DNA of 64,000 nt from Paenibacillus herberti (GTDB lineage: Bacteria; Bacillota; Bacilli; Paenibacillales; Paenibacillaceae). The notes under the pieces were generated by a model, which was not told the origin of the DNA, did not search any database, and saw nothing but the letters and a program-made list of their open reading frames with translations. This document shows, piece by piece, positions 54,604 to 60,972 of this stretch. Both the position numbers and the translations under genes were made by a program. The stretch covers positions 62,001 to 126,000 of the forward strand of contig NZ_NMUQ01000004.1 in assembly GCF_002233675.1 (NCBI RefSeq). Reading direction: 5' to 3'. Position 1 is the first letter of the stretch. Each line of letters begins with the position of its first letter.

Positions 54604-54621
54604 TCGTGCTCATTAAAGCCA

Positions 54622-54657
54622 AAAAGCCCTGAACGAGACGCCTCGTTCAGGGCTTTT
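54622..54657. terminator. Bidirectional terminator between the SMR and beta-propeller operons
   Basis: AAAAGCCCTGAACGAG (54622-54637) and CTCGTTCAGGGCTTTT (54642-54657) form a perfect 16-bp stem with a 4-base loop. A-rich and T-rich flanks let it serve both converging operons. A similar hairpin lies upstream of the beta-propeller operon at 60345. Confidence 0.92.
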
Positions 54658-54661
54658 CACA

Positions 54662-55543
54662 TTAACTAGAAACTATTCCCCTAGGACCAGCCCCGACAGG
54701 AATCGTTTTGATTACGCTTAATGACTGCGCGTCGATAACGGAAACGGTGTTGCTGTCATAATTAGTCACGTACACCGTTTGCTTGTTAGGGGTGACCGTT
54801 ACTCCATATGGAATTGTGCCTACAGGTATCGTTTTTATTACGCGTTTACTAACCAAATCAATGACCGAAACGGATCGGCTTCTCGAATTCGCTACATATG
54901 CACGCAGCCCACTGCTTGAAATAGCAAGCCCCAGAGGAGCGAGGCCTACCGGTATTTGTGCAATAGGTTTATTGGTACTGGCCGAATAAATCGTGATTTG
55001 GTTTGTATCAAAATTAGTTACAATAAAGCTTTTTCCGCTTGGAGTAAAAACAAGCCCCCAGATTGGACCGGACGGTAGCGTTTGGACCACCTTATTTTGC
55101 GGGATATTAATGATAAAAATGTCTTGTGCCAATGTCGTCACATATAGCTGCTGTCCACTTGGAGCTGCTGTAATCGTTACTGGACCGTTCGCAACTTGAA
55201 ACCGCTCGATAACATGGAATGAACGCGCATTAATAACCGCTACCTCACCCGAGTACTGACCCGGAACATAAACCTTGTTTGACACTGCGGCGATCCCGAA
55301 TGGCTCCGGAAGTACATTTTGAATAGTCTGAATGACTGTATTCGTTTTTCTAGAGATAACTGATACTGATCTAGACCCTACATTTGACGTATATAATCGG
55401 GATTTATCTGGAGAAAAATTAATGGCGTTGGGGTTCTTGTTTACGGGAATCGTTTTGACCACTTTATTCGTGACCGTATCGATAACGGAGACGCTGCTGC
55501 CATTTTGATTGCTCACATAGGCCAAAGATCTCTTGCGATCCAT
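54662..55543 (-). CDS. YVTN-repeat seven-bladed beta-propeller protein, class A, copy 3
   Basis: This is a 293-residue protein made almost wholly of about seven repeats of roughly 42 residues with YVTN/YVAN strands (for example YVSNQNGSSVSVID, YVANSRSRSVSVID, YVTNYDSNTVSVID). No signal peptide or membrane segment is present. Class A marks are PEPFG after repeat 2, YVTTLAQDIFIIN and WGLVFTPSGKSF. It ends VGAGPRGIVSS. It is the last of six tandem paralogues, 28 bases behind the class B gene. YVTN propellers usually bind ligands or proteins; no function can be assigned. Confidence 0.85.
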   Translation of the reverse strand: MDRKRSLAYVSNQNGSSVSVIDTVTNKVVKTIPVNKNPNAINFSPDKSRLYTSNVGSRSVSVISRKTNTVIQTIQNVLPEPFGIAAVSNKVYVPGQYSGEVAVINARSFHVIERFQVANGPVTITAAPSGQQLYVTTLAQDIFIINIPQNKVVQTLPSGPIWGLVFTPSGKSFIVTNFDTNQITIYSASTNKPIAQIPVGLAPLGLAISSSGLRAYVANSRSRSVSVIDLVSKRVIKTIPVGTIPYGVTVTPNKQTVYVTNYDSNTVSVIDAQSLSVIKTIPVGAGPRGIVSS

Positions 55544-55571
55544 AGTTCATTTCCTCCCACATTAGAATGGA

Positions 55572-56483
55572 TTAAGAGGTAATCGCGATTCCACGAGGGT
55601 TATTCCCCGTCGGGATGGTTTCAATAACGCTATTCGTAGTTGTGTCGATGATAGAAATGGTATTGTCGCCAAAATTGGTGACATAAGCTCTGCGATTAAG
55701 TGGAGTTAGGGCAATTCCAAACGGCACGAATCCGACCGGAATCGTTTTAATTACTCCATTCGTAGAGGTATCGATGACCGATACCGAGCTGCCGCGAGAG
55801 TTGGTCACATAAACGCGTTGTCCATTTTTTGAGACTATAACTCCAAGCGGAGCCGCACCGACAGGTATTCGTTTAATCAAGGCATTGTTGCCGGCATTAT
55901 AAACAGATACCAGATTCGTCCCGTAGTTATTCACGTAGTACCTTGTTCCATTTGGTAAAAAGCGAACGCTCCAGCTGCCCGTTGCCGGGATTGTCTCAAT
56001 AACTTTATTCGTATTCGCGTCAATAATCGAAATGCCCGTCCCAAGAGAAGTGACATACACCTTGCTCTCGTCCGGGGAAACGGCAATTCCGACAAGCCCA
56101 TTGCCAATCGGTATTTCTTGCAAGACATTATTCGTAACCGAGTCCAGCACAAATACAGAACCTGTATACAATGTAGGAACATAAATCCGCCCTCTATTTG
56201 GAGCAAAAGCAGTAGCAAAAGGCTCTGAACCTACTCCGCGAACCGTTTGAATCAATGTATTCGTACTTGTTGAAATGACCGAAAGAGTATTGCTGCCCCG
56301 ATTCGTCGTATACACCCGTGCTCCGTCGGGAGAAATAACTGCTGAATTAGGAAGCTGGCCTACCCGGATTGTTTTTATCGTTCGATTGCTAGGAATTGCA
56401 AGGACCGATAGAGAGTCGTCATTTTGGTTGCTCACATAAGCAAACAGCGATTGTGTTGCTTGTGTACCGGTTGCTGTCCCCAT
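55572..56483 (-). CDS. YVTN-repeat seven-bladed beta-propeller protein, class B, copy 3
   Basis: This 303-residue propeller of about seven YVTN-type repeats has no signal peptide. Class B marks are VGQLPNSAVISPDG early on, GVGSEPFA, IPIGNGLVGIAVSPDESKVY, TSLGTGISIID, and SWSVRF followed by RYYVNN. The start MGTATGTQATQSLFAYVSNQ has a 10-15-residue polar lead before the first blade, which class A proteins mostly lack. It lies 35 bases behind the class A copy 2 gene and probably shares its transcript. Confidence 0.85.
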   Translation of the reverse strand: MGTATGTQATQSLFAYVSNQNDDSLSVLAIPSNRTIKTIRVGQLPNSAVISPDGARVYTTNRGSNTLSVISTSTNTLIQTVRGVGSEPFATAFAPNRGRIYVPTLYTGSVFVLDSVTNNVLQEIPIGNGLVGIAVSPDESKVYVTSLGTGISIIDANTNKVIETIPATGSWSVRFLPNGTRYYVNNYGTNLVSVYNAGNNALIKRIPVGAAPLGVIVSKNGQRVYVTNSRGSSVSVIDTSTNGVIKTIPVGFVPFGIALTPLNRRAYVTNFGDNTISIIDTTTNSVIETIPTGNNPRGIAITS

Positions 56484-56518
56484 TTTTCCACTCCTAAATT
56501 TAAATTAAAAAACCAAGT

Positions 56519-57388
56519 TCATATAATTGAGATCCCTCTTGGACCAGCCCCGACAGAAATCGTTGTAATGACTCTTAGCGACTTGGAGTCGATTACAGAA
56601 ACCGTTGTGCCTCCATAATTCGTTACATAGATTTTTCGATTGTCGGGAGATAGGGCTACTTCGTAGGGTACTCTGCCCACAGGGATCGTTTTGATGACAC
56701 GCTTGGCAGCAATCTCAATGACCGAAACAGAGCCGCTTCGAGAGTTGGTTACGTAGGCACGTTCCCCGTTACTTGATATTGCCACCCCGATGGGAGCAAT
56801 ACCGACCGGTATTTTACCGATCAGCCGATTGGTACAGGTTGAATAAATAGCAGCGAAGTTTGATAAATAATGATTGGCAATAAATCTTTTTCCGTCTGGC
56901 GTAAAAGCCAGCCCCCAAATTGCTTCCTTCGGAATCGATTGGATGAGTTGATTCGTTGTGACATCAATGATCCAGATATTGTGCACTAAAGAGGTCACGT
57001 ATAACTTCTGATTATTTGGGTGCAAAACGGCGGATAAAATTCGAGTCACGACCGGAATTCGCTTGATTAGCGTTCCACTCCCGGCATCCAGTACGGTAAC
57101 GTTTCCCGTGAACTGATCGGGAACAAACAGCTTTCCATCGGCATGGACGGCGCCAAACGGCTCTGGGGTTACATTGCGAATGATTTCGATGACTTGGTTC
57201 GTTCTCGTCGAGATGACCGAAATCGATCTTTCTCCTCCATTAGCCGTCAATACCTCCGTTCTGTCGAATGAGGTATCCACTTGGACTGGATTTCTGCCTA
57301 CAGGAATCGTCTTAACAATTTCATCCCCATCCGTATTAATGACGGTGAGCGTACTACTATTCTGGTTACCTACATACGCCAAGCCCAT
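56519..57388 (-). CDS. YVTN-repeat seven-bladed beta-propeller protein, class A, copy 2
   Basis: This is a 289-residue propeller. Repeats include YVGNQNSSTLTVIN, YVTSLVHNIWIID, YVTNSRSGSVSVIE and YVTNYGGTTVSVID. Class A marks are PEPFGAV and WGLAFTPDGKRF. One blade is eroded at the edge strand (ANHYLSNFAAIYSTCTN), and this copy has two Cys-containing or unusual positions compared with its paralogues. It begins directly with the first blade (MGLAYVGNQ). It lies 29 bases behind class B copy 2. No signal peptide. Confidence 0.85.
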   Translation of the reverse strand: MGLAYVGNQNSSTLTVINTDGDEIVKTIPVGRNPVQVDTSFDRTEVLTANGGERSISVISTRTNQVIEIIRNVTPEPFGAVHADGKLFVPDQFTGNVTVLDAGSGTLIKRIPVVTRILSAVLHPNNQKLYVTSLVHNIWIIDVTTNQLIQSIPKEAIWGLAFTPDGKRFIANHYLSNFAAIYSTCTNRLIGKIPVGIAPIGVAISSNGERAYVTNSRSGSVSVIEIAAKRVIKTIPVGRVPYEVALSPDNRKIYVTNYGGTTVSVIDSKSLRVITTISVGAGPRGISII

Positions 57389-57417
57389 CGCGATTTACTT
57401 CTCCTTTGTGATCCTAT

Positions 57418-58329
57418 TCATGGTGTAATTGTGATTCCACGCGGATTAGGTCCTGCCGGAATCGTTTGAATCACCTGATTGGTCCTTATATCAATAACCG
57501 AAACGGTGTCGCTGCCAAAATTGGTGACATACACCCTTTGATCTGTGTAATCGATGGAAAGTAAAAAAGGAGTATCACCAACAGCTATCGTTTGAATGAC
57601 CTCATTCGCTTCCATGTTTATGACGGAAACCGTATTGCTGACGGAGTTCGTAACATAAGCGAGCTTGCCATCCTTCGAGATGGCTGTTGCTAGAGGAGCA
57701 ATCCCAACGGGTATTCTTGCGAGCCGATTATTAGTGCGAGTCCCATAAACAGATAGTTGATTGCTCGCTTCATTAATGACGTAATACCGCCCTCCACTTG
57801 GCGAAAAAGTAAGGCTCCAGCTATCCGGTTCCGCTATAACTTTAATGACCTTATTGGTTGCTGCGTCAATAATTGAGATACCTTTTTCCAGGGAAGTAAT
57901 ATAGATTTTGCTTTCATCCGGTGTCACCGCTCCACCTGCAACACCGTTCCCGATCGGTATTTCCTTGATCAATCTGTAGGTGAGGGCATTCAATACCAAT
58001 ATCGTCCCCGTAAAAAGAGAAGGCACATACAAACGATTCCTGCTCGCAGAAAGGGCAATGCCAAACGGCTCTACACTTACGCCAGTTATCGTGTGGATCA
58101 CTTCATTCGTCTCTGTGGACACGATGGATATGGAATTATCTCCCCCATTAGGCACATACACGCGAGTTCCATCCGGGGAAATTGTAATGGCATTGGGAAG
58201 CTGACCCACCTGAATTGTTTTTATAATTCGATTGGTTGCAAGATCTATGACAGAAAGAGAAGCACCATCATGATTGCTCACGTAAACAAACCGAGGCTGT
58301 GTTGCTTGTTGTCGGATTGCTGTTTCCAT
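57418..58329 (-). CDS. YVTN-repeat seven-bladed beta-propeller protein, class B, copy 2
   Basis: This 303-residue propeller begins METAIRQQATQPRFVYVSNH. Class B marks are IQVGQLPNAITISPDG, GVSVEPFGIAL, IPIGNGVAGGAVTPDESKIY, TSLEKGISIID, and SWSLTF followed by RYYVINE. It ends with NPRGITITP as the other B copies do. The gap to class A copy 1 upstream is only 12 bases. No signal sequence is present, so a cytoplasmic or spore-compartment location is likelier than secretion. Confidence 0.85.
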   Translation of the reverse strand: METAIRQQATQPRFVYVSNHDGASLSVIDLATNRIIKTIQVGQLPNAITISPDGTRVYVPNGGDNSISIVSTETNEVIHTITGVSVEPFGIALSASRNRLYVPSLFTGTILVLNALTYRLIKEIPIGNGVAGGAVTPDESKIYITSLEKGISIIDAATNKVIKVIAEPDSWSLTFSPSGGRYYVINEASNQLSVYGTRTNNRLARIPVGIAPLATAISKDGKLAYVTNSVSNTVSVINMEANEVIQTIAVGDTPFLLSIDYTDQRVYVTNFGSDTVSVIDIRTNQVIQTIPAGPNPRGITITP

Positions 58330-58341
58330 TTGTCGCTCCTC

Positions 58342-59241
58342 TCACACAATTGCTACCCCTCTGGGGCCGAGTCCTACCGGTATTGTTAGGAGCACTTTAA
58401 GCGTTCCGGCATCAATGACGGAAACGGTATTGCTCCCATTATTGGTCACATAGATGCTCCGATCATCCGGGGTAATGGCAAGATTGTAAGGCACGTCGCC
58501 AACCTGAATCGTTTTGATGACGCGTTGTGATTTCAGATCGATTACCGATACGGACCGGCTCCGTGAGTTGGTAACATAAGCCCGCCTCCCATCACGAGAG
58601 ACATTGATGTCGATAGGAGCGACTCCTACCGGAATTGAATTTATGATCTTGTTCGTGCGCACGCAGTAAATCAACGTCTCATTCGTTCCAAAGCTGTTCA
58701 CGACAAATTTTTTGCCATCCGGAGTGAAGTCTAGCCCCCAGGTCGCTCCTGTAGGAATCGAATTCACGACCCTTTTCAGACGAGTATCAATGATCCATAT
58801 ATTGCGTGCTTGAGTCGTCACATATAACTTTTTGCCATCCGGCAATGAAGCGATTGCCAAGGGCAGATTGGCAACTGGAAAACGCGCGATTGATTCGTTC
58901 GTCAGCGCATTAAACACCGTCACTCCACCCGTATACAGGTCCGACACATAAAATCTGTTTCCAACCGATACCGCCGCAAAAGGCTCCGGGCTTACATTTC
59001 GAAGCGTTCTGGTCACTTGATTCGTTCGCGTGGAGAGAATGGAGATCGACCGATCACCGCTATTGATCGCGTAAATCTGCCTCCCATCGGGGGATGCGTT
59101 AACCTGACCGGGATTTTTGCCCACTGGAATCGTCTTGATGACCCGATTGGAAGCCGAATTAATGACCGATACGGTGCTGTTATTTTGATTGCCCACATAA
59201 ACCAGGACGCTTCTTTTGAGCAATCTTTTCGGTTCAGCCAT
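58342..59241 (-). CDS. YVTN-repeat seven-bladed beta-propeller protein, class A, copy 1
   Basis: This is a 299-residue propeller if it starts at the ATG at 59241, which follows GGAGGAGGGAGTCA. A longer in-frame start would lie inside the previous gene and adds unlike sequence. Repeats include YVGNQNNSTVSVIN, YVTNSRSRSVSVID and YVTNNGSNTVSVID. Class A marks are PEPFAAV, YVTTQARNIWIID and WGLDFTPDGKKF. The start overlaps the end of class B copy 1 by 8 bases, so translation is coupled. Confidence 0.85.
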   Translation of the reverse strand: MAEPKRLLKRSVLVYVGNQNNSTVSVINSASNRVIKTIPVGKNPGQVNASPDGRQIYAINSGDRSISILSTRTNQVTRTLRNVSPEPFAAVSVGNRFYVSDLYTGGVTVFNALTNESIARFPVANLPLAIASLPDGKKLYVTTQARNIWIIDTRLKRVVNSIPTGATWGLDFTPDGKKFVVNSFGTNETLIYCVRTNKIINSIPVGVAPIDINVSRDGRRAYVTNSRSRSVSVIDLKSQRVIKTIQVGDVPYNLAITPDDRSIYVTNNGSNTVSVIDAGTLKVLLTIPVGLGPRGVAIV

Positions 59242-60187
59242 TGACTCCCTCCTCCAGGCGCGGCGGTGTGATCGCGATTCCGCGCGGGTTGACTCCGGTC
59301 CTAATCGTATCGATGACCCGGTTCGCAGCCGTATCAATAACCGAGACTGTGTTGCTGCCAAAATTGGTCACGTATACCCTCCGATTGCCCGGCGTAATCG
59401 CGATCCCAAACGGAACGGAGCCGACGGCAATCGTATTCAGCACTCGAAAGCTTGCGGCGTCCAAAACCGAGACGGATTTGCTGCGCGAGTTGGCTACATA
59501 AACGCGCCGCCCGTCACCTGACGCAACAATTCCAAGAGGAGCCAGGCCGACCGCTGTTTTTTGGAGCAGCTTATTCGAGCTTGCATCGTAAACGGATACC
59601 GAATTTGATCCTGCATTATTGACATAATATCTGGCGCCGTCCGGTGAAAAGTCAATTCCCCAGCTGTCCAGATTAGGAATTGTCGCCATAACCTGATTGG
59701 TTTTGGGATTAATAATCGTGATGCCCGCTCCTACGGAGGTGACATAAACCTTGCTCTGGTCCGGGGAAACACCGACTCCGACTAGGCCGTTCCCAACCGG
59801 AATCTCGTCCAGCACTTTATTCGTATCGAGATCCAGCACAAACAAGGAGCCGCTGTAAAAAGAAGGAACATAGTAGCGGTTTCGACTTATGGAGAAGTCA
59901 GCTGCAAAAGGCTCCGTACCGACTCCTTTAACAGTCTCAATAACCCGGTTCGTTTGAGCCGAAATAACCGTTATGCTATTGCCCGCCCCGTTGGTCGTAT
60001 AAATTCTCTTCCCGTCGGGAGAGATGGCAGCCGAGTTGGGCAGCTGGCCTACGCGGATCGTCCCAATGATTCGGTTCGTCCCAATGTCCAGCACAGAAAG
60101 CGAATCATTATCTTGATTGGTGATATACGCAAACAGCCGTCGTTGCGCCAGCTCAGTCTGCTTATCCTGATTATCCTGCTTAAACAA
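59234..60187 (-). CDS. YVTN-repeat seven-bladed beta-propeller protein, class B, copy 1 (first gene of the operon)
   Basis: This 317-residue propeller is the longest of the six. A polar 17-residue lead (MFKQDNQDKQTELAQRR) precedes the first blade (LFAYITNQDNDSLSVLD). Class B marks are IRVGQLPNSAAISPDG, GVGTEPFAADF, IPVGNGLVGVGVSPDQSKVY, TSVGAGITIIN, and SWGIDF followed by RYYVNN. Its stop lies inside the start of class A copy 1. A palindrome and a possible late-sporulation-type promoter lie 65-100 bases upstream. Confidence 0.86.
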   Translation of the reverse strand: MFKQDNQDKQTELAQRRLFAYITNQDNDSLSVLDIGTNRIIGTIRVGQLPNSAAISPDGKRIYTTNGAGNSITVISAQTNRVIETVKGVGTEPFAADFSISRNRYYVPSFYSGSLFVLDLDTNKVLDEIPVGNGLVGVGVSPDQSKVYVTSVGAGITIINPKTNQVMATIPNLDSWGIDFSPDGARYYVNNAGSNSVSVYDASSNKLLQKTAVGLAPLGIVASGDGRRVYVANSRSKSVSVLDAASFRVLNTIAVGSVPFGIAITPGNRRVYVTNFGSNTVSVIDTAANRVIDTIRTGVNPRGIAITPPRLEEGVNG

Positions 60188-60251
60188 TGATCAATCCCCT
60201 CGCTCCTGCTCCGATCCTTCCTCTTATTGAGCCCAGACCGGCTCGAAGGTT

Positions 60252-60285
60252 CGTCATATTTTATGACGCTAATCTGTTTGTGGTG
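60252..60285 (-). promoter_or_regulatory. Palindrome and possible SigK-type promoter of the beta-propeller operon
   Basis: CGTCATA-TTT-TATGACG (60252-60268) is a perfect 7-bp inverted repeat. On the minus strand its CATAAAATA (60257-60265) fits the SigK -10 pattern CATAnnnTA, and CACC (60282-60285) lies 16 bases upstream, where SigK expects an AC-containing -35. A simple operator is an alternative explanation. Confidence 0.4.
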
Positions 60286-60344
60286 ACATTTGCCCAGTCG
60301 AATGTAATTACCGGCTCCACGGGCTCACATTAATGAAAAAAAAA

Positions 60345-60385
60345 GACAAAACCCTGGACGAGAATAGCTCGTTCATGGCTTTGTC
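60345..60385. other. Hairpin resembling the one at 54622, upstream of the beta-propeller operon
   Basis: GACAAA..CCTGGACGAG pairs with CTCGTTCATGG..TTTGTC. The inner part CCTG-ACGAG / CTCGTTCA is shared with the terminator at 54622-54657 beyond the other end of the operon. No gene that it could terminate is seen. Confidence 0.5.
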
Positions 60386-60598
60386 AAGCAAAGCGAGACT
60401 CGCGTTTGGTGTAGGGCACACAGAAGGTTTCCGAGAGTTTTCGAACGACGGGAGGAGCCCGGAAATTCGCTCGAAGCGCAGTGTTTGTTTCGACGATCAT
60501 GAAGCAGTAGCTGGAGCTGCTCCCTTCGCTTGTCTGGGCCTTGTCGGGGCAACTGCGGCTTAGACAGGCCTAAGTCGTACCACCAAATCAGTCTCGTA
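60386..60598. other. Non-coding stretch before repeat copy 2
   Basis: There is no gene I can support here. Open frames on both strands are Arg/Ser/Cys-rich and lack ribosome sites, so they look random. Confidence 0.4.
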
Positions 60599-60832
60599 TG
60601 GATGCCGTCATGCACAATTTGTATGATTTTCCACTCAAAGTGCCTTCGGGCCGTGCTGATATTGAGGACATTGTACGATAAATCATTCAAAATGGCTGGG
60701 TGTAGTCGACGAAAGCCGGGCTTTGTATGTTTTATCACACAAAGTGTTGAAAAGCGGCGGTTATAAACCGAATTTTATACGATAAATCGTATAAAAAAAG
60801 TTGCGTTGCCCACGAAAGCCGAGTTCAAACCC
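60599..60832. repeat. 234-bp dispersed repeat, copy 2, with four internal palindromes
   Basis: This copy is gap-free against 12576-12809 and in the same orientation. The four TTTGTAYGAT-like palindromes lie at about 60617-60638, 60669-60692, 60721-60744 and 60774-60795. One arm of the last palindrome has a C-to-T change (CGTATAAA instead of CGTACAAA). It lies in the intergenic region ahead of the GumN-family gene. Confidence 0.85.
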
Positions 60833-60972
60833 TATTCCATTGGATAAACCAATTTATTTAATCACTTTATCATTAAATGGGATTATAAATACATTATTGG
60901 TTATTGACCAACCACCATAGAACATCTAATATTACTGATGTTCCATATTATTCTATCTAGAGGGGTCGTCCT

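Follow-up and report, generated by a model that had tools for sequence, protein, structure and literature searches.

Why would a bacterium keep six propeller genes back to back on one strand, and when and where would it use their products? The question is raised by a 64,000-nucleotide stretch of the genome of Paenibacillus herberti (contig NZ_NMUQ01000004.1, positions 62,001 to 126,000; hereafter the window, numbered from its first letter), in which six adjacent minus-strand genes at positions 54662-60187 encode YVTN propellers. Propellers of this kind are widespread among bacteria, and for most of them no role is known. We find that the six proteins belong to two classes, A and B, encoded in the transcription order B1-A1-B2-A2-B3-A3, that the B-A pair is the unit gained and lost among three species of the genus, and that a sequence of sigma-K promoter type precedes the first gene. 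We lean towards reading the array as a late mother-cell operon encoding propellers of the spore envelope.

Two classes of propeller in one array

A preliminary description of this DNA had reported six adjacent minus-strand YVTN genes of 289-317 residues, separated by gaps of 12-35 bases or overlapping, and this layout is confirmed (Table 1). The first two genes, B1 and A1, share 8 bases, the ATG start of A1 lying over the stop codon of B1, and the remaining gaps in transcription order after A1 are 12, 29, 35 and 28 bases. The hairpin of an intrinsic terminator follows A3, with a calculated stability of -28.9 kcal/mol (z -6.3; 0 of 200 shuffles equally stable), and the six genes apparently form one operon with this strong terminator at its end. 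Scans of the region for sigma-70-type promoters and terminators gave little information, returning 13 and 12 sites compared with 10.5 and 7.1 in shuffled sequence. When B1 was used as a query against its own genome, only these six genes were returned at E 0.001.

Within the array, identity is 51-61% among the B proteins and 52-53% among the A proteins, versus 42-45% between the classes. In a tree of the 14 proteins from the three species that carry the array, seven A rows are parted from seven B rows by a branch with support of 100/100, while trees that place neighbouring genes as sisters are rejected (p-AU 4.1e-7 for pair 1, 2.9e-8 for pair 2 and 3.7e-8 for pair 3), so that the alternating classes first noticed by inspection correspond to two clades. 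At only three alignment columns does each class have a fixed residue that differs from that of the other (L49/N, F260/Y and N289/L, in B1 numbering), and a two-residue gap in A is a further difference between them. The EPF motif and the tryptophan previously put forward as class marks do not serve as such, both being invariant in all 14 proteins.

The classes also stay apart in a 24-row tree with an outgroup (A 99/99, B 93/92, A and B together 85/84), in which the 10 outgroup rows were hand-picked from many matches, YVTN repeats may align out of register, and the family is not firmly rooted by its relatives outside the genus. Because A and B remain separate in the presence of outgroup rows, the simplest history would be that A and B split once and the pair was then multiplied, and the single origin of the pair proposed earlier stands as the simplest account of the tree, not as a proven one. 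These data are best explained by two ancient paralogous classes, A and B, that have been maintained in 1:1 pairs.

The B-A pair as the unit of gain and loss

The array is found in three of eight genomes of the genus, namely that of P. herberti, that of a sister species (G007) and that of a third species (G005). Among the five genomes without it, two have no match at 1e-20 and three have one partial match each, inside a reading frame of approximately 1,600-1,700 residues. The gene order is B1-A1-B3-A3 in the sister species (L095) and B2'-A2'-B1'-A1' in G005 (L096), which also has one additional distant YVTN gene elsewhere (L090, 30% identity). Across the three genomes there are seven B-A pairs, and in each of them the tree assigns the B gene and its A partner to matching types. 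At the A1-B3 junction of the sister species, the one junction examined, the sequence switches from resembling A1 to resembling A2 in the final bases of the gene and then runs on into the A2-B3 spacer; homologous recombination between A1 and A2, adding or removing exactly one B-A unit, would leave such a trace. The pair-wise gain and loss in three species supports the B-A pair, rather than the single gene, as the unit that comes and goes, in line with the earlier proposal that the pair was amplified as a whole. The three array species group together in an rpoB tree with modest support (80/75), which makes a single gain in their common ancestor possible.

Patchy occurrence in three of eight genomes, together with a copy number that varies among species, might also be expected of a selfish or decaying tandem duplication without maintained function. 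The base composition could be read in the same way, as the guanine-plus-cytosine content is 44-52% across the six genes and 46% in the two 2-kb segments that hold most of them, compared with 49-58% in most other 2-kb segments of the window. However, the ratio of nonsynonymous to synonymous substitution rates (dN/dS) could be computed for seven of the eight comparisons of orthologues within the genus, where it lies at 0.08-0.21, the eighth (A2 versus Aa) being saturated, there are no stop codons within the 14 reading frames, and type identity is kept across species. The orthologues are thus under purifying selection wherever this can be computed, and we consider decay or selfishness very improbable.

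A seven-bladed fold and its nearest relatives

All six proteins score above the 27.85-bit cut-off of the TIGR02276 YVTN repeat model (162-230 bits, E 1.9e-48 to 9.1e-70). Two of the six, B1 and A1, were modelled with AlphaFold2 (mean pLDDT 91.7 and 92.4), and each model has 28 strands forming seven four-stranded blades with a three-plus-one closure, outside of which there are only short low-confidence ends. The predicted structures agree with the earlier impression of about seven YVTN repeats and nothing else. No signal peptide or anchor was recognisable in the six proteins by eye, from their sequences, the two models and the alignment, and in A2 only two residues precede the first aligned strand region. 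This absence had been called unusual for the family, which does not hold among Bacillota YVTN proteins: none was seen by eye in L024, L027-L029, L098, L099, L100, L103 or a Priestia protein described below, whereas one is present in L093 and L102.

Among solved structures, 1l0q is the closest to both models (template modelling score 0.88 for B1 and 0.92 for A1, identity 37 and 33%). It is an archaeal surface-layer propeller with the same repeat and fold that also has PKD domains; in the array, by contrast, the propeller makes up the entire chain and the genes stand in A/B pairs. A second likeness to surface proteins comes from Rhodococcus spongiicola (L010:8462-20655), where at least seven YVTN genes lie in tandem on the same strand in approximately 12 kb; this is the only other tandem YVTN set of more than two genes among the loci examined, many of which have short flanks, and its products differ from the six in having signal-like N-termini and glycine-serine-rich tails. 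Both comparisons would suit adhesins or layer proteins that growing cells send to their surface or beyond by a non-classical route, but the lack of any recognisable signal peptide, anchor or tail, and the propeller filling the B1 and A1 chains, make this distinctly unlikely.

Escherichia coli YncE (3vgz, 3vh0) is a propeller of the same size and fold as the B1 and A1 models. The six proteins nevertheless miss its equivalog cut-off by a wide margin (NF052280, 80-103 bits versus 400), and they have no recognisable signal peptide, while YncE is described as mostly periplasmic in the available text of PMC10399906. The same text reports a YncE-like gene of Clostridioides difficile that changed in biofilm and recurrence comparisons, and in that portion of the paper a spore location is not mentioned (PMC10399906). 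The accessible part of another paper names YVTN merely as an example of a repeat (PMC1876623).

Five residues, E92, P93, F94, W176 and R302 in B1 numbering, do not vary among the 14 A and B proteins and sit at loops leading into inner strands. Of 294 loops of other YVTN proteins, 3 have tryptophan at the corresponding position and 22 have phenylalanine. The invariance of these residues and the rarity of the tryptophan elsewhere suggest a binding pocket common to A and B at one end of the propeller.

Could the proteins belong to a known class of propeller enzymes? All six pass the cut-offs of the Pfam models for lactonase and YncE-like domains, and partial matches extend to the clade III lactonase-type nitrous-oxide reductase (NosZ) and to the beta subunit of hydrazine synthase. 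Passing the Pfam lactonase model in six of six indicates the fold only, not the enzyme, and the equivalog scores are far below their cut-offs (NF052460, 81-89 versus 700 bits for the reductase; NF052340, 92-147 versus 560 bits for hydrazine synthase). A clade III lactonase-type nitrous-oxide reductase is expected to have copper-ligand residues. In the array, B1 and B3 contain neither histidine nor cysteine, and A1 has one cysteine and no histidine, so that a metal or heme site common to the proteins is not apparent. We therefore rejected lactonase-type NosZ, hydrazine synthase beta and lactonase as identities, and regard an enzyme of any of these classes as scarcely credible. The six proteins are likewise not filaments of the BclA kind, as no collagen-like repeat was matched in them.

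A putative sigma-K-type promoter ahead of B1

The Bacillus sigma-K consensus is given as MWCM-16-CATANNNTD in the available text of PMC9562818, and the sequence CACC-N16-CATAAAATA upstream of B1 fits it at every position, as a promoter of the sigma-K regulon should. A stricter pattern (MACM, a spacer of 15-18 nucleotides and CATANNNTA) has only two matches on both strands of the window, one of which is the B1 promoter. The boxes are identical in the sister species, and of the five substitutions that separate the two genomes in the 130 nucleotides before the start, four fall in the 16-nucleotide spacer and none in the boxes, a clustering with a chance of 0.001 under an even spread. In G005 an exact -10 box, CATAAGATA, is present 42 nucleotides before the first gene, with three of four -35 positions matched at the same spacing.

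We calibrated the motif by comparing all 26 matches of the strict 16-nucleotide pattern in the P. herberti genome with 30 of the 35 matches of the reversed pattern, where coverage by open reading frames (ORFs) is a crude stand-in for annotation. Fifteen of the 26 lie outside ORFs of at least 110 residues, versus 7 of the 30 reversed matches, and 13 of 26 versus 3 of 30 are in addition placed as promoters, with a start codon and a ribosome-binding site within 150 nucleotides (Fisher p 0.0012; 0.0023 without the array itself). For four matches (L125, L126, L128 and L134) the top downstream frame covers the motif, L134 still being counted among the 13. One of the 26 precedes a protein that matches GerE (PDB 1fse, 1.4e-30); gerE is a sigma-K target in Bacillus subtilis. 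As a sequence match, then, the promoter is position-specific and conserved, though recognised post hoc.

Behind other sigma-K-type promoters of the P. herberti genome there are two pairs of small proteins, L115/L116 and L124/L133, alike within each pair by eye. None of the four has a Pfam or NCBIfam match, and they are candidate spore proteins.

The sister species shares not only the promoter but a longer leader (Table 1), and at the position where the similarity stops, a stem-like repeat, judged by eye, is followed by a run of T. Past this point the rest of the interval between B1 and a TraB/GumN gene (60188-60970) differs from the sister species. The TraB-like gene adjoins the array here but lies approximately 8 kb from it in G007 and G005, so the upstream neighbourhood has been rearranged.

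Table 1. Features of the propeller array, with positions in the window, in transcription order
Feature	Position	Strand	Details
Leader common to P. herberti and G007	60188..60385	-	Similarity stops sharply at 60385
Sigma-K-type promoter (putative)	60257..60285	-	CACC (60285-60282), 16 nt, CATAAAATA (60265-60257); 69 nt before B1 start
B1, seven-bladed YVTN propeller, first gene	59234..60187	-	TTG start, 317 residues; repeat model match and structure model
A1, seven-bladed YVTN propeller	58342..59241	-	ATG start, 299 residues; repeat model match and structure model
B2, YVTN propeller	57418..58329	-	303 residues; repeat model match
A2, YVTN propeller	56519..57388	-	289 residues; repeat model match
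B3, YVTN propeller	55572..56483	-	303 residues; repeat model match
A3, YVTN propeller, last gene	54662..55543	-	293 residues; repeat model match
Intrinsic terminator 3' of A3 (predicted)	54621..54658	-	17-pair stem, 4-nt loop, five T at end of 3' arm

Spore envelope or growing cell

We would place synthesis of the six proteins in the mother cell, and their deposition on the spore, because of the sigma-K-type promoter, the missing export signal and the presence of gerE in the genome of what is probably a spore-forming bacterium. Sigma-K RNA polymerase would transcribe the six-gene operon in the mother cell late in sporulation, and the products, lacking secretion signals, would be synthesised in the cytoplasm of the mother cell like the proteins of coat and exosporium. 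The propellers would then be laid down on the forming spore, where small rigid seven-bladed proteins could act as binding or building units, and multiplication or deletion of pairs would equip every species with a spore-surface set of its own. The preliminary description had suggested action inside the cell or the spore; the promoter backs the spore, and the location there is our inference. The odds, as we judge them, are modestly in favour of this spore-envelope operon.

Relatives in the same family and order offer indirect support. L091 and L097, from the same family and order and with 34% identity to B1, have a YVTN propeller without a recognisable signal peptide, as in the six, but bear a collagen-like stalk that the six do not have (75 bits in L091; 24.5 bits in L097, below the 27.2 cut-off). 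L092 and L094, from the same family, likewise show no signal peptide by eye, and L092 also stands behind a sigma-K-like promoter; they differ from the six in an extra N-terminal domain of unknown type, and no second YVTN gene was seen in the short flanks examined. The N-terminal domains ahead of the propellers of these two (L092:1492-2799 and L094:1483-2922) are similar by eye.

Several observations weigh against a spore role. The sigma-K motif was picked after inspection of the region, its -35 box is imperfect in G005, and sigma-E and sigma-K differ very little in their -10 boxes according to the available text of PMC9562818. Genome-wide, the pattern is not over-represented (26 matches versus 35 for its reverse), and the ten genes scanned behind other motif matches include none that is named as a coat family. 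Among 19 other Bacillota YVTN genes, a looser two-box pattern is found at one (L092, with a 17-nucleotide spacer); the full -10 alone is near two (L094 and L097) but its reverse is near five, so -10 matches alone carry no information. Scans with domain models found no known spore-coat domain in the six proteins, and a search of the open-licence literature on YVTN and spores yielded nothing that appeared relevant.

A different account would have A-B hetero-oligomers in the cytoplasm of vegetative cells, acting as scaffolds or binding a small molecule, peptide or DNA, with the promoter match fortuitous. It would explain the lack of an export signal on inspection and the conserved pocket suggested by the invariant residues, and a DNA-bound crystal form of E. 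coli YncE (3vh0) is among the fold matches. The position of the promoter, its pattern of conservation, the calibration and the scores far below the YncE equivalog cut-off tell against this account; we regard a vegetative role as unlikely.

Returning to the spore-envelope operon, the preliminary description had proposed a heteromeric complex of A with B, and a direct A-B complex is speculative. Over 21 pair comparisons the mirror-tree correlation is 0.93, which was not taken as evidence for a complex, since a shared pair history alone yields it. A spore-surface layer or fibre coat built of A+B heteromers, in which species alter their spore surface as recombination adds or deletes whole pairs, is a doubtful elaboration, one that we would not expect to hold. 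If it did, the layer would constitute a modular, exchangeable spore-coat cassette, for which no described counterpart was found in the literature searched. Should the operon prove to serve the spore at all, the YVTN fold would gain a cell location, an expression time and a testable partner, and the array would provide a naturally modular set of spore-surface proteins for studying how spore coats diversify. The fold itself is common and known, and the paired layout is without a description that we could find: searches of the open-licence literature showed no account of YVTN genes in paired tandem arrangement, nor any of a YVTN protein in the spore under sigma-K control, in keeping with the earlier remark, which knew of no described system of this layout.

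Relatives beyond the genus

The search was extended to samples of the family, order and phylum, which overlap and in which at most five candidates were scored per genome. At 1e-30, 7 of 394 family genomes have a match, comprising the three array species and four single-gene genomes at 30-36% identity; in the order sample the matches are in 7 of 392 genomes (the three array species and four at 34-47%), and in the phylum sample in 7 of 398 (P. herberti and six at 28-38%). No close homologue was found outside the three array species among the 394 family genomes. A scan of genome contigs, which may omit near records, returned 72 distant loci, none named as a close relative. The preliminary description would have been refuted by homologues that occur only singly elsewhere, or by a tree with neighbouring genes as sisters, and neither is seen inside the genus. 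Elsewhere in the Bacillota each genome with a homologue has a single one at the threshold applied; these homologues are distant (28-47% identity) and are not members of A or B.

A mobile origin was also considered. Phage origin is unsupported, with one match among 50,697 phage records (32% identity) and one relative at 25% in viral contigs, as is plasmid origin, with matches in 418 of 72,556 plasmid records at E 1e-15, two of which were inspected, and none at 60% identity or above. The Priestia megaterium plasmid pBM600 encodes a protein (WP_013060454.1) that resembles the six in being a propeller only, of 307 residues, without a recognisable signal peptide; it differs in that no other propeller gene is annotated in the 9 kb to each side, and its identity to B1 is 37%. 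Its gene lies near a transposase and a methyltransferase, and the pBM600 record has five matching places.

Other YVTN proteins met in the search have architectures of their own. An RNase H domain is fused to a YVTN propeller in three genomes from a different family of Bacillota (f72), as found by Pfam scan in L101 and L104 and by eye in L105. In Desulfosporosinus, four YVTN proteins (L024, L027, L028 and L029) start straight with the propeller, and L024, the one of the four that was scanned, has a cysteine-containing C-terminal part without a Pfam match.

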